From NCBI GenBank assembly GCA_039096225.1, contig JBBPEB010000006.1, forward strand, positions 1,172,501 to 1,236,500: DNA of 64,000 nt, in the 5' to 3' direction. Source of the DNA: Blastocystis sp. Blastoise (taxonomy: Eukaryota > Sar > Bigyra > Opalinata > Blastocystidae). Below the pieces are notes generated by a model. That model was given only the letters and a program-made list of their open reading frames with translations, was not told where the DNA came from and ran no database searches. Below, piece by piece: positions 18,637-62,230 of this stretch (the stretch's first letter is position 1; each line of letters opens with the position of its first letter). A program made the translations under genes and the position numbers.

Positions 18637-19485
18637 ATACATTTTTTAATTGAATATATATTTTATTATAGATATATTGTTTTATTATTCTTTCGTTTAT
18701 TTCTTTTTATGTTTGTTTTGTTATAAATAACTGTATTTGAGTTTTCAAAATTAATAAGTCACATAAAAAATGTATAAAAGGAAATAATGTAGTATATATT
18801 TTATCTAGTATTATATATAAAATAATCATTTATATAAGCTAAATAACTATTTTAAAAACATTAAGTACACTTAATGTATAATCATTTTAAATAATAATTT
18901 TTAATATTCAAAAAATGGAGTTACAAAGGAAATCTTTTGAATTAGGCAATTATGAAATAATAGATGAGAATTAAATAGGAATAATTTTTCTCTTTGAATT
19001 ATTTAAATATTTTTTAATATTTTTATATGCTTTCATTGAGTATTTATAGTAGAAAATAAAATAATGCAGATTGTTTTTTTTGTAGCATATTTCTGAACTC
19101 AGTTTTTAAATATAATGCATTGATTAATTCGTTGAGTTAAAAAAAGTAAGAAATATGGAGAATAAAGAATAGAATAATTTAGAGAATACTATTATTTTAA
19201 TTAATTAAAAATCATTATTCAAGTGTATATGATCTATATAAACTATTGATATATCTTTTAATAGAATAGAATCAAGTATAAAGAATCACTGAACAATGGA
19301 TATCTATAAATAAATATAAATATGTTCTTAATAAACTATAGATATCTCAAGTATTTCAAAGAAGAATATATTATGAATAAAGAAGAATTAAATAATTGAA
19401 AATAATAAATGAATATATTTTTAAAAGAAGTTTCTTTAAAAAAATAAAAAATATATTTCTAATTCATTTATTTCATTTATTTGAT
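18637..19485. other. Intergenic region entering the inverted duplication
   Basis: AT-rich sequence with no convincing gene. From about 19113 onward it is nearly identical to the reverse complement of DNA ending near 61606, which marks the left edge of the duplicated block. Upstream of 19113 the two loci are unrelated. Confidence 0.6.
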
Positions 19486-21176
19486 ATGTTGCATCAGTTA
19501 TTCAATAGATCGTCTCAGAATATATTAAAGAAAGTAATAGAGTTCAATTCTAGTAATTCTTTGCGTTCATTTTCAAGGTGAGTTGATTGTTTCTTTCATT
19601 TTAAGAATATTATTATTTTATAAAGATTCCATAAGATATCTAATGATGATATAAATATTTCAAATGAGGATATAAAGTATCAAGTAAAGATTTATTATTT
19701 TTTTTTATTGATATAGAGATTCAATAGATTCAAAAATGAATAATTTAAATATTAAAAAAGATATTTCTACAAAATTAGAGTCTTATAAACCAAATAAATT
19801 GAGTGTACATAATTTATAATATTTTTTTTATTCTCTATATTTTATTATTAATTTTATATAAATAAATATTTTTTATTTTTAAAGAATAAGAATGAGCGAC
19901 TTTTATCTGTAGGTATTTGTGGTGCTCCAAATGTAGGTATGTTATAATAATAAACATAATAATAATAATAATATAATAATATAAATAAATATAAAGGGAA
20001 GAGTACTTTATTGAATACGTTGATTGGTGAGAAGATATCTGCTGTTAGTCCAAAGAGGAACACAACTCGGAATAGTATTACTGGCATAAAGAATATAAAG
20101 AATACCCAATTATTGTTTTTTGATACTCCCGGATTTATTCAACGAGGGTATGAAAATTATTATTATAGTTAAGAATTCTATATATAAATAGAATGATAAT
20201 TATTATAGTTAAGAATTCTATATATAAATAGATGATAATATTTATTATAGTTAAGAATTCTATATATACATAGAATGATAATATTATTATAGTTAAGAAT
20301 TCTATATATAAATAGAATGATAATATTATTATAGTTAAGAATTCTATATATAAATAGAATAATAATAGTATTAATATATTATAATGTTATGTATATAATA
20401 GAGTGAAGAATAAAGAAGAGAAAGGTTTAATGGCTACAGCAGAATCAACATTAATTGCAATGGATGCTTGTTTAACTTTAATAGATGGTACAAGTGGTTT
20501 AACTCCAATAAGTAAAGACGTTCTTGATAAGGTAATCAATACATGTTTCGTACATAATGTGAATCTATATCTTGTTATTAATAAAATAGATGAAGTAAAT
20601 CCTAAAACAAATTTACTTGCTTTAGCTCGAGATATGGATATATATACAAATGAATGTATAAATAATTATAAGCAACATGTATATAATATATAATATAATA
20701 AAATAATAGAATATAATAAAATATAGATAGAAGAATTAAATGAGTTTCAACGTTCTTTTAATTATAAATATTTATATATGATATCAGCGAAAGAAAGAGA
20801 TGGCACAGAAGATATTGTACATCAACTCGTTGATGATGCTAGGACATCCCCGTGGTTATATGCACGAAATAGTAAGAATACAACTGGATTCCAAGGAATA
20901 TTAATGGAAATAGTACGAGAAAAAGTGTTTTTGTTATTACATAAGGAACTTCCTTATCGTATTCAAATAGTTAATGATATATATGAAGAAAAAGAAGATT
21001 CTATACATGCCAATTTCAATTTTATTATAACAAATAAACATCACAAACGGATCTTACAATCTGTATTATCAACTATATATAAGCAAGTGATGCGAGAAGT
21101 GAATATAAATACAATTAAACCTATTACTCTATCGATGAAAATCCAAGTGAATTCAAATCAATTGAATCCACTTTAA
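19486..21176 (+). CDS. Era-like GTPase, probably mitochondrial, copy 1
   Basis: Spliced reading starts [16 protein letters not shown] at 19486, a basic, Ser/Asn-rich leader fitting a mitochondrial targeting peptide. GTPase motifs follow: GAPNVGKST (G1), NTTRNSITG (G2 region), DTPG (G3), NKID (G4) and SAKE (G5). The C-terminal part, after ...[14 protein letters not shown], matches the KH RNA-binding domain of Era. Era binds the 3' end of small-subunit rRNA and helps ribosome assembly. Introns: 19578-19625, 19677-19716, 19805-19884, 19937-19996, 20148-20401 and 20679-20726. The last is missing in copy 2. Copy 1 lacks three introns found in copy 2. An in-frame ATG at 19396 exists but is not conserved in copy 2. 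TAA ends at 21176. Confidence 0.88.
20148..20401 (+). repeat. Intron minisatellite in Era copy 1, five units
   Basis: The intron holds five copies of a ~40-43 bp unit containing TAGTTAAGAATTCTATATAT. Copy 2 (about 60370-60580) has four. The unit contains an EcoRI site, GAATTC, which would make a simple marker. Confidence 0.85.
20679..20726 (+). other. Phase-0 intron present only in Era copy 1
   Basis: Copy 1 reads CAACAT, then a 48-bp intron (GTATATAATAT ... AAATATAG), then ATAGAAGAA. Copy 2 reads CAACATATAGAAGAA with no interruption. The last four bases of the intron (ATAG) equal the first four of the next exon. Confidence 0.9.
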
Positions 21177-59527: not shown

Positions 59528-61238
59528 TTAAAGTGGATTCAATTGATTTGAATTCACTTGGATTTTCATCGATAGAGTAATAGGTTTAATTGTATTTATA
59601 TTCACTTCTCGCATCACTTGCTTATATATAGTTGATAATACAGATTGTAAGATCCGTTTGTGATGTTTATTTGTTATAATAAAATTGAAATTGGCATGTA
59701 TAGAATCTTCTTTTTCTTCATATATATCATTAACTATTTGAATACGATAAGGAAGTTCCTATGATTTATATATATTATATATTATTATATATATTACCTT
59801 ATGTAATAACAAAAACACTTTTTCTCGTACTATCTATATAATAATAATAATAATAATAATAATAATAAATAGAATACTTCCATTAATATTCCTTGGAATC
59901 CAGTTGTATTCTTACTATTTCGTGCATATAACCACGGGGATGTCCTAGCATCATCAACGAGTTGATGTACAATATCTTCTGTGCCATCTCTTTCTTTCGC
60001 TGATATCATATATAAATATTTATAATTAAAAGAACGTTGAAACTCATTTAATTCTTCTATATGTTGCTTATAATTATTTATACATTCATTTGTATATATA
60101 TCCATATCTCGAGCTAAAGCAAGTAATTTTGTTTTAGGATTTACTTCATCTATTTTATTAATAACAAGATATAGATTCACATTATGTACGAAACATGTAT
60201 TGATTACCTTATCAAGAACGTCTTTACTTATTGGAGTTAAACCACTTGTACCATCTATTAACTATATATATATATATATATATAAAGTTATTAAATACAG
60301 TTAAACAAGCATCCATTGCAATTAATGTTGATTCTGCTGTAGCCATTAAACCTTTCTCTTCTTTATTCTTCACTCTATTATATACATAACATTATAATAT
60401 ATTAATACTATTATTATTCTATTTATATATAGAATTCTTAACTATAATAATATTATCATCTATTTATATATAGAATTCTTAACTATAATAATTATCATTC
60501 TATGTATATATAGAATTCTTAACTATAATAATTATCATTCTATTTATATATAGAATTCTTAACTATAATAATAATTTTCATACCCTCGTTGAATAAATCC
60601 AGGAGTATCAAAAAATAATAATTGTGTATTTTTTATATTCTTTATACCAGTAATACTATTCCGAGTTGTGTTCCTCTTTGGACTAACAGCAGATATCTTC
60701 TCACCAATCAACGTATTCAATAAAGTACTCTTCCCTTTATATTTATTTATATATTTATATTATTATTATTATGTTTATTATTATAACATACCTACATTTG
60801 GAGCACCACAAATACCTACAGATAAAAGTCGCTCATTCTTATTCTTTAAAAAAAAAATATTTTTTATATAAAATTAATAATAAAATATAGAGAATAAAAA
60901 ATATATTATAAATTATGTACACTCAATTTATTTGGTTTATACGACTCTAATTTTGTAGAAATATCTTTTTTAATATTTAAATTACTCATTTTTGAATCTA
61001 TTGAATCTCTATATCAATAAAAAAAATAATAAATCTTTACTTGATACTTTATATCCTCATTTGAAATATTTATATCATCATTAGATATCTTATGGAATCT
61101 TTATAAAATAATAATATTCTTAAAATGAAAGAAACAATCAACTCACCTTGAAAATGAACGCAAAGAATTACTAGAATTGAACTCTATTACTTTATTTAAG
61201 ATATTCTGAGACGATCTATTGAATAACTGATGCAACAT
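59528..61238 (-). CDS. Era-like GTPase, probably mitochondrial, copy 2
   Basis: Nearly identical protein to copy 1, with GAPNVGKST, DTPG, NKID, SAKE and the same C-terminal KH part ending NSNQLNPL before TAA at 59528. One difference is PKTKLL versus PKTNLL. Three introns are found only here: 60298-60262 (37 bp), 59877-59834 (44 bp) and 59797-59759 (39 bp). The intron before the IEELNEF segment of copy 1 is absent. All four variable introns are phase 0. The other introns are shared and still align base by base. Both copies appear intact, so both may be made; whether both are expressed is not known. Confidence 0.88.
59759..59797 (-). other. Phase-0 intron present only in Era copy 2 (third)
   Basis: Copy 2 reads ACATAAG, then GTAATATAT ... 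ATCATAG, then GAACTTCC. Copy 1 reads ACATAAGGAACTTCC. Confidence 0.9.
59834..59877 (-). other. Phase-0 intron present only in Era copy 2 (second)
   Basis: Copy 2 reads TTAATGGAA, then GTATTCTATTTATT ... ATATAG, then ATAGTACGAG. Copy 1 reads TTAATGGAAATAGTACGAG. As in the copy-1 intron, the intron end ATAG equals the next exon start. Confidence 0.9.
60262..60298 (-). other. Phase-0 intron present only in Era copy 2 (first)
   Basis: Copy 2 reads TGTTTAACT, then GTATTTAATAAC ... ATATATAG, then TTAATAGATGG. Copy 1 reads TGTTTAACTTTAATAGATGG. Confidence 0.9.
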
Positions 61239-62230
61239 ATCAAATAAATGAAATAAATGAAATAGAAATATATTTTTTACTTTTCAAATAAAATTCTTTT
61301 AAAAATATATTCATTTATTATTTTCAATTATATAACTTTTCTTTATTCATAATATATTCTTCTTTGAAATACTTGAGATATCTATAGTTTATTAAGAACA
61401 TATTTATGTTTTTTATAGATATCTATTGTTTAGTGATTCTTTATACTTGCTTCTATTCTATTAAAAGACATATCAATAGTTTATATAGATCATATACACT
61501 TGAATAATGATTTTAAATTAATTAAAATAATAGTATTCTTTTAATTATTCTATTCTTTATTCTCCATATTTCTTATTTTTTTCAACTCAACGAATTAATC
61601 AATGCATTATATATAATAATCAACTTTTAACGTTTCAAATAGTAAGTCTTCAAATGGAATAAATTTCTTAAAACCGTTGATTTTAATTTATATTAAGTGA
61701 ACAAAATTATACATATCTCTGCCAATATTTTCATATATATATAAATATAAACAATAAGAAGAATCAATAGAAAATACTTCTTTTATAATAAATGTTAGTT
61801 TTTCCTCAAAAGACTCTCTTGGGTATTTATATTTGCCTTGAAAGCCTGTCTTTCTCTATATTTCAGGCTCTCAAGACATTCAAAAAAACTTCTTTGGAGT
61901 TCAGACCTGACTTTTACCATAATTTTGCGATCGTTTCAATTATTGAACAAAATTTTAAAAATATATTTTTAGAATTCAACAAAACCTAAAGAATTCCATG
62001 ATGGGTATGTATCCTAGGTTTAAAAATTTTTAAAAATGAAAATAATCATGGATTTCTGAAGAAAATTACTGAATTATTTTATTTAATCGTGATTTTACAG
62101 TTAGGTATATATAAGAAAACGATTTTTGAGGGAGTTCACGAGAATAATGTTTATGGTGATTTATGAATTCACTTGATTATTTACCAAACATTGGTTTTGT
62201 TATAATTCCAAATTCTTACAACAATACGTC
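61239..62230. promoter_or_regulatory. Upstream region of Era copy 2 and the amidophosphoribosyltransferase
   Basis: About 990 bases between divergent starts. The part up to ~61606 is duplicated; the rest is unique and should hold the promoter of the + strand gene. An open frame at 61792-61989 has no recognisable features and I treat it as chance. Confidence 0.45.

Follow-up and report, generated by a model that had tools for sequence, protein, structure and literature searches.

Why should two near-identical, inverted copies of one gene differ by four introns that are cleanly present in one copy and absent from the other? This question is raised by a 64,000-nucleotide (nt) stretch of the Blastocystis sp. 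Blastoise genome (C14:1172501-1236500, hereafter the window; assembly of 33.3 Mb in 34 contigs), which carries two copies of a gene for an Era-like GTPase. A preliminary description of this DNA, based on the sequence alone, had left the choice between gain of short introner-like insertions and repeated exact loss. We consider it probable that recent, exact, and patchy loss templated by RNA or complementary DNA (cDNA), mostly of short introns, explains the Era pair, which would be one more instance of a process found elsewhere in this genome. Beyond the window, we examined ~0.3 Mb of the 33 Mb, picked by following repeats, i.e., a sample rather than a survey.

Alignment of the duplicated segments (19113-21533 on the plus strand versus about 59168-61606 on the minus strand) bore out the reported inverted copies with four clean intron differences. 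Copy 1 (19486-21176, plus strand; 369 amino acids [aa]; Pfam MMR_HSR1, 4.7e-22) has five introns according to the alignment and splice model, namely, 19578-19716, 19805-19884, 19937-19996, 20148-20401, and 20679-20726, and alignment with it gives copy 2 (59528-61238, minus strand) seven introns. Four introns are common to both copies (139/138, 80/77, 60/57, and 254/209 base pairs [bp]; phases 2, 0, 1, and 2), and four are private. More specifically, introns A (60262-60298; 37 bp), C (59834-59877; 44 bp), and D (59759-59797; 39 bp), all on the minus strand, occur only in copy 2, the empty site of A lying after position 20477 in copy 1, whereas intron B (20679-20726, plus strand; 48 bp) occurs only in copy 1, its absence from copy 2 being exact. 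All four private segments are in phase 0 and end in GT..AG. The empty sites are as exact as had been described, in that A, B, and C each admit a single placement (by eye) and D slides over 3 bp. Because their retention would break the reading frame, the segments are predicted to be spliced, and with this predicted splicing both copies encode 369 aa, the two predicted proteins differing only at residues 15, 39, and 198. By their GT..AG ends and the restoration of the frame, the private introns appear to be spliceosomal (U2-type). The spliced copy 1 protein is 100% identical over 90% of its length to WA158_003290 (P0001) of Blastocystis sp. Blastoise, an unclassified Blastocystis among the stramenopiles; this public model omits B and agrees with copy 1 at residues 39 and 198. 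It begins at the second methionine, which is residue 38 in the longer frame and lies in exon 2 (region 19486-19827), so that it may lack the N-terminus and first intron. A genome search yielded only two full-length Era copies, and since one contig carries both, we ruled out that they are alternative haplotypes of one locus. No DNA of an Era relative was found in viral contigs, the sole outside collection scanned, from which records of near-identical genomes may be omitted.

The copies diverge in their flanks (18/371 substitutions in the 5' flank and 15/357 in the 3' flank) and in the common introns (10 substitutions/481), whose identity the preliminary description had proposed to measure. Among the exons, numbers 1 to 4 carry 9/383 substitutions versus 1/727 in the 3' exons (Fisher p = 4.5e-4), a homogenised block (20402-21176, plus strand) that holds all four variable sites; flank-level divergence resumes a few bases past the stop codon. 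Synonymous changes number 7 on 79 sites in exons 1 to 4 and 0 on 148 sites in the 3' block (p = 5e-4). Since synonymous sites are unchanged there as well, the low 3' divergence is not due to protein constraint. Such homogenised exons would be the pattern left by exon copying from spliced RNA.

The preliminary description had suggested that this could be a live intron-turnover system and that other paralogues with clean intron differences be sought. Three further families were found, and each of them supports recent turnover, with the polarity being that of loss. At the end of C13, a 23-kb segment occurs twice in tandem, with 12 substitutions between the copies over 22,987 aligned nt, and the only gaps longer than 3 nt measure 14, 66, and 35 nt. 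The 66- and 35-nt gaps correspond to two GT-AG introns that neighbour each other in a minus-strand gene; they are exactly missing from copy b with the intervening exon retained, and both show zero placement ambiguity. Both introns are present in 11 of the 12 aligned family copies that span the site (further partial copies outside the site were left out) and absent solely from copy b, which polarises the change as the loss of a pair of neighbouring introns. The 23-kb duplication spans C13:1315001-1362363 (L014-L018), and related blocks, many of them close to the end of a contig, occur on seven or more further contigs. GT-AG introns of 42 and 40 bp at C26:24034 and 24163 are missing from a C3 copy at ~19% divergence, a difference that carries no polarity. 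A dispersed repeat (L019-L022; C14, C34 twice, and C8) showed no intron difference in the three pairs compared. This repeat is at least 8.5 kb long, with zero substitutions in the three pairs and internal tandem repeats, and L019 contains no frame of at least 150 aa.

Likewise, loss was evident in a family represented by a multicopy 8-kb segment of C26, numbering 27 or more copies genome-wide (L011, L040-L064), with a TLDc domain demonstrated in the gene of the C14 copy (Pfam TLD, 1.1e-25). Among six copies aligned over 8 kb, the C14 copy lacks two adjacent introns. We extended the alignment to all 27 listed matches spanning the site (the six 8-kb copies, the C3 copy, and 20 slices; 28 of 521 candidates scored), in which intron 1 is absent from 7/27 copies and intron 2 from 6/27, both being absent from 4 and present in 18 (Fisher p = 0.024, relatedness not corrected for). 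Parsimony on three midpoint-rooted trees gives 6 and 3 losses, versus 13 and 14 gains on the assumption of an ancestral absence. The intron sequences at each site are alike among copies (aberrant copy C3c excluded from scoring), with mean scores of 14.5 versus 7.7 when shuffled for intron 1 (95/171 pairs >2 standard deviations above the shuffled mean) and 15.9 versus 5.8 for intron 2 (131/190 pairs), and thus the introns are homologous and did not arise by gain in parallel. The nine copies without an intron lie on seven contigs, eight of them 7-13% and one 2.8% from the nearest relative; in the closest pair, C23c/C10 (2.8% divergence), C23c lacks both introns. Conversion between copies may blur the number of events, leaving their direction intact.

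The third family is represented in the window itself, by the internal part of an SNF2-family helicase gene (31020-34190, plus strand; SNF2-rel_dom, 6.1e-87), of which C21, C22, and C16 carry partial copies. Seven introns are exactly missing from the window gene, all of which are found in C21, and C22 and C16 carry every one that they span and in which they can be scored. The empty sites, all on the plus strand, are V1 (31100-31101; intron of 55 bp in C21 and 53 bp in C16), V2 (31207-31208; 45 bp in C21 and C16), V3 (31540-31541; 36 bp in C21, C22, and C16), V4 (31699-31700; 95 bp in C21, present in C22 too, C16 unscored), V5 (32500-32501; 98 bp in C21 and 100 bp in C22), V6 (32655-32656; 53 bp in C21 and 49 bp in C22, sliding over 4 bp), and V7 (33647-33648; 32 bp in C21 and C22); C22 does not span V1 or V2. 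Placement is without ambiguity at V1, V2, V3, V5, and V7, as well as at P1, a phase 1 intron considered below. The phases of V1 to V7 are 0, 2, 0, 0, 2, 1, and 2. Thus, the earlier statement that all four Era introns are in phase 0 stands, but it does not generalise, and we dropped phase 0 as an insertion rule. The C21 and C22 matches end within an intron, and all three partial copies show exon length changes; to judge by their sequences, they look like broken SNF2 copies. Because broken copies are unlikely to have gained seven GT-AG introns, we read V1 to V7 as losses in the window gene. A further SNF2 intron, S2 (31981-32114), starts with AT in the window gene and C21 and with GT in C22; it may be a rare AT-AG intron or else reflect an error in the sequence.

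Intron P1 (31764-31829, plus strand; 66 bp) is present in the window gene, exactly absent from C21, and 18 bp long in C22, so that by parsimony its absence from C21 would be a loss. The C22 counterpart (L038, C22:1-3400, near position 614) is an 18-bp intron candidate consisting of GT, TA repeats, and AG. C21 and C22 are near-identical (16/3376), and over the alignment 194 sites set the window gene apart from both. Within 31661-31980, this usual type of site is missing (0 sites), and at 7 sites C21 instead shares the state of the window gene, with C22 differing, which delimits a minimal tract of 31666-31909 (plus strand) where C21 matches the window gene's exons and P1 is absent. Three further sites at which C21 equals the window gene (31600-31602) are likely a single change in C22, since C16 agrees with the window gene and C21; the remainder are scattered (31332, 31410, 32442, and 32576), and one site (33459) follows a third pattern. 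By this comparison, C21 acquired exon sequence of the window gene without P1, which lies mid-tract. Because a DNA donor would have carried P1, the donor was presumably spliced RNA or cDNA. Transfer of donor exons without the donor's intron was observed in this one case (window SNF2 gene to C21).

The introns that vary are short. In the SNF2 gene, variable introns measure 32-98 bp versus 99-242 bp for common ones (p = 7e-4), and with SNF2 and Era pooled the variable introns are again shorter than the common ones (p = 1e-4). The reverse-transcription model predicts that shorter introns are lost (PMC4683709). The four variable Era introns are also the four 3'-most of eight (chance 1 in 70), yet they are the shortest as well, and we dropped an argument from 3' bias on account of the SNF2 gene, which shows none. 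Reverse transcriptases are encoded in the genome, where 20 of 21 RVT_1 matches exceed the Pfam cut-off and none has an internal stop, with open frames of up to 2,787 codons. Reverse transcriptase genes with frames of ~2,400-2,630 codons occur in pairs or triplets at C10:55024/63615, C13:624268/632859, C14:664277/672868/681360, and C29:412516/421012, spaced by 8,591 (C10), 8,591 (C13), 8,591 and 8,492 (C14), and 8,496 bp (C29), as if they were head-to-tail elements. Blastocystis genomes are rich in short introns, the commonest length being 30 bp in ST1, ST4, and ST7 (PMC5608401), and of 12 minor introns aligned from subtype 1, 11 are described as lost in B. hominis (PMC10639083); this minor-intron turnover in the genus fits a loss-prone lineage.

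On these grounds we propose the following course of events. One local inverted duplication, or later homogenisation, would have yielded two Era copies with eight introns each, after which copy 1 would have lost A, C, and D exactly, and copy 2 would have lost B; that these changes are losses is what we infer for a pair with no outgroup of its own. A spliced transcript, probably in the form of cDNA made by genome-encoded reverse transcriptases rather than as RNA, would pair with the gene, short exon stretches would be copied into it, and the intervening intron would drop out exactly at the splice junctions. With short, patchy tracts (no less than about 190-240 bp in the one case that allows measurement), losses would be interspersed with kept introns. 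As to a possible trigger, it is conceivable, though we hold it only tentatively, that TA/TTA repeats in short introns break and that repair from the spliced transcript (RNA or cDNA) then removes introns singly and exactly. Repair of this kind would rewrite ~100 bp of exon on each side and would account for internal losses that are patchy and show no 3' bias, for the position of the C21 tract around the lost intron, and for the homogenisation seen in Era.

Several observations weigh against transcript-templated loss. The lack of an outgroup leaves the polarity at Era to be inferred, and the set V1 to V7 likewise lacks one; the 18-bp version of P1 in C22 is taken as the same intron from its position. 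At Era, at least three loss events are needed if each takes neighbouring introns, and the homogenised exons could reflect ordinary gene conversion that predated the intron changes. The seven SNF2 absences are unclustered (3 adjacent pairs versus 2.8 expected) and spread along the gene without favouring its 3' end, which departs from the textbook model. In C21, V4, which is missing from the donor, persists between sites 31666 and 31723; therefore, either the tract begins after V4 or conversion was patchy. Losses are also uneven: four introns are affected in a single Era gene and eight in a single SNF2 gene, versus one event in ~15 kb of the C13/C26/C3 blocks (1.6-3.7% divergence) and one in 8 kb among six TLDc copies, the other five of which, at 4-7% divergence over 8 kb, show no intron difference.

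Recent gain, in which three short AT-rich segments were inserted into copy 2 and one into copy 1, be they introner-like or filler left by the repair of breaks, would produce an identical Era alignment and agrees with the variable introns being short, AT-rich, and of simple sequence, and with all four Era sites being in phase 0; the length difference between variable and common introns would fit it too, which is a further point against loss. When the Era introns were searched against ~351 kb and 60 shuffles, B and C outscored the shuffles in 60/60 cases, A in 58/60, and D in 52/60, and the best outside matches were simple-repeat-like. Compared pairwise, the four Era introns never exceed the shuffles in likeness by more than 2 standard deviations, and no target-site duplication was found at A, B, or C, where the unambiguous placement leaves no space for such a repeat. 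Moreover, the three families examined gave zero polarised gains, the polarised cases being all losses, and no GT-AG intron private to one of the six TLDc copies (8 kb) or to one of the C13/C26/C3 blocks was flagged by a scan that may miss some introns, TLDc intron 2 having gone unflagged as GT-AG and been seen on the alignment only. We therefore regard gain as unlikely. The introner-like origin offered as one option in the preliminary description thus finds no support in the sequence examined, and repeated exact loss proves the better of its two options, with C13, TLDc, and P1 all polarised in that direction.

Plain genomic deletion, by chance or via short repeats at the splice sites, could have been guided by the 3-bp end repeats at TLDc intron 1 and Era D. 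Removal was exact yet unambiguous in placement at Era A, B, and C, at both C13 introns, and at V1, V2, V3, V5, V7, and P1 of SNF2, and deletion leaves unexplained how C21 came by exon variants of the window gene and not its intron; we consider it very unlikely. The claim that no single cDNA-mediated loss explains the Era pattern holds in the simple sense that no one event yields it directly. The pattern is complementary, each of the four introns being in exactly one copy, and a single cDNA event might have stripped all four from one copy, with later exchange between copies shuffling the segments, as exchange between loss and wild-type alleles has been published for internal loss (PMC2395259). 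Such a history requires a reciprocal double exchange within ~430 bp around B and is unnecessary if each loss was separate, which makes it highly improbable. Least credible of all is an assembly or polishing artefact that dropped introns from near-identical copies: read placement is hard in the C13 and Era copies, but the boundaries coincide with exact splice junctions, and a read mix-up is unlikely among the TLDc copies without introns, given the divergence and the spread over contigs described above.

The remainder of the window adds little to the intron question. GC content is 18-28% per 2-kb step, and self-repeat comparison of the window returned the Era pair and numerous simple repeats. 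Scans of the window for tRNAs and against Rfam gave nothing relevant to the introns, nor did Pfam searches of nine window open reading frames, in which one sub-threshold match appeared. DNA searches with positions 41600-59100 and 1-19100 retrieved chiefly repeats and distant families. Beside Era copy 1, the minus strand carries a 1149-codon open frame (21537-24986) with a sub-threshold Ig-like (He_PIG) match.

mRNA-mediated intron loss by reverse transcription has been described in Dictyostelium (PMC4683709) and Cryptococcus (PMC2395259), and internal intron loss is known elsewhere (PMC2395259). Blastoise shares with it exact removal at splice junctions, co-loss of adjacent introns in some cases, a preference for short introns, and genome-encoded reverse transcriptases. 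It differs in that the cases lie between paralogues of one genome at divergences down to 0.05%, the same intron is lost repeatedly in one family, the SNF2 losses are patchy and internal without 3' bias, and one tract carries donor exon variants minus the donor's intron. An experiment by Derr and Strathern (1993) was reportedly performed in yeast. That study is cited for mRNA-mediated intron loss by PMC4202315, which itself describes new introns of Daphnia pulex that resemble those of Blastoise in clean presence or absence, very low divergence, and recurrence at the same site; in D. pulex, however, gains exceed losses nearly 18 to 1, whereas the polarised Blastoise cases are losses. Similarly, introners (PMC9860276) produce recent whole-intron presence/absence differences like those at Era, but they are self-copying, and some carry target-site duplications along with inverted repeats, features that are not universal among introner families, whereas the four Era introns show no family likeness and polarity in this genome is toward loss. 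In grasses (PMC4256211), the same introns are repeatedly lost as in Blastoise, although between species rather than between copies within a genome. Our searches of the open-access literature returned no paper on Blastocystis sp. Blastoise, no report of recent intron loss in this organism among the titles listed, and none on a gene conversion tract with intron loss.

The kind of intron loss described here is thus already known, and the Blastoise cases are unusually recent. Inferences of intron loss usually come from comparing species, by which time the exon footprints of the event have long vanished. In Blastoise, loss can be read between gene copies as little as 12 substitutions apart over 23 kb; outgroup copies can be compared with them, and in one instance the exon variants of the donor are still visible. 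The route of exact removal, be it by whole cDNA, by short patches, or by repair of breaks within introns, thereby becomes directly testable, and if breakage within introns does prove to be the trigger, Blastoise would constitute a natural system for transcript-templated break repair.

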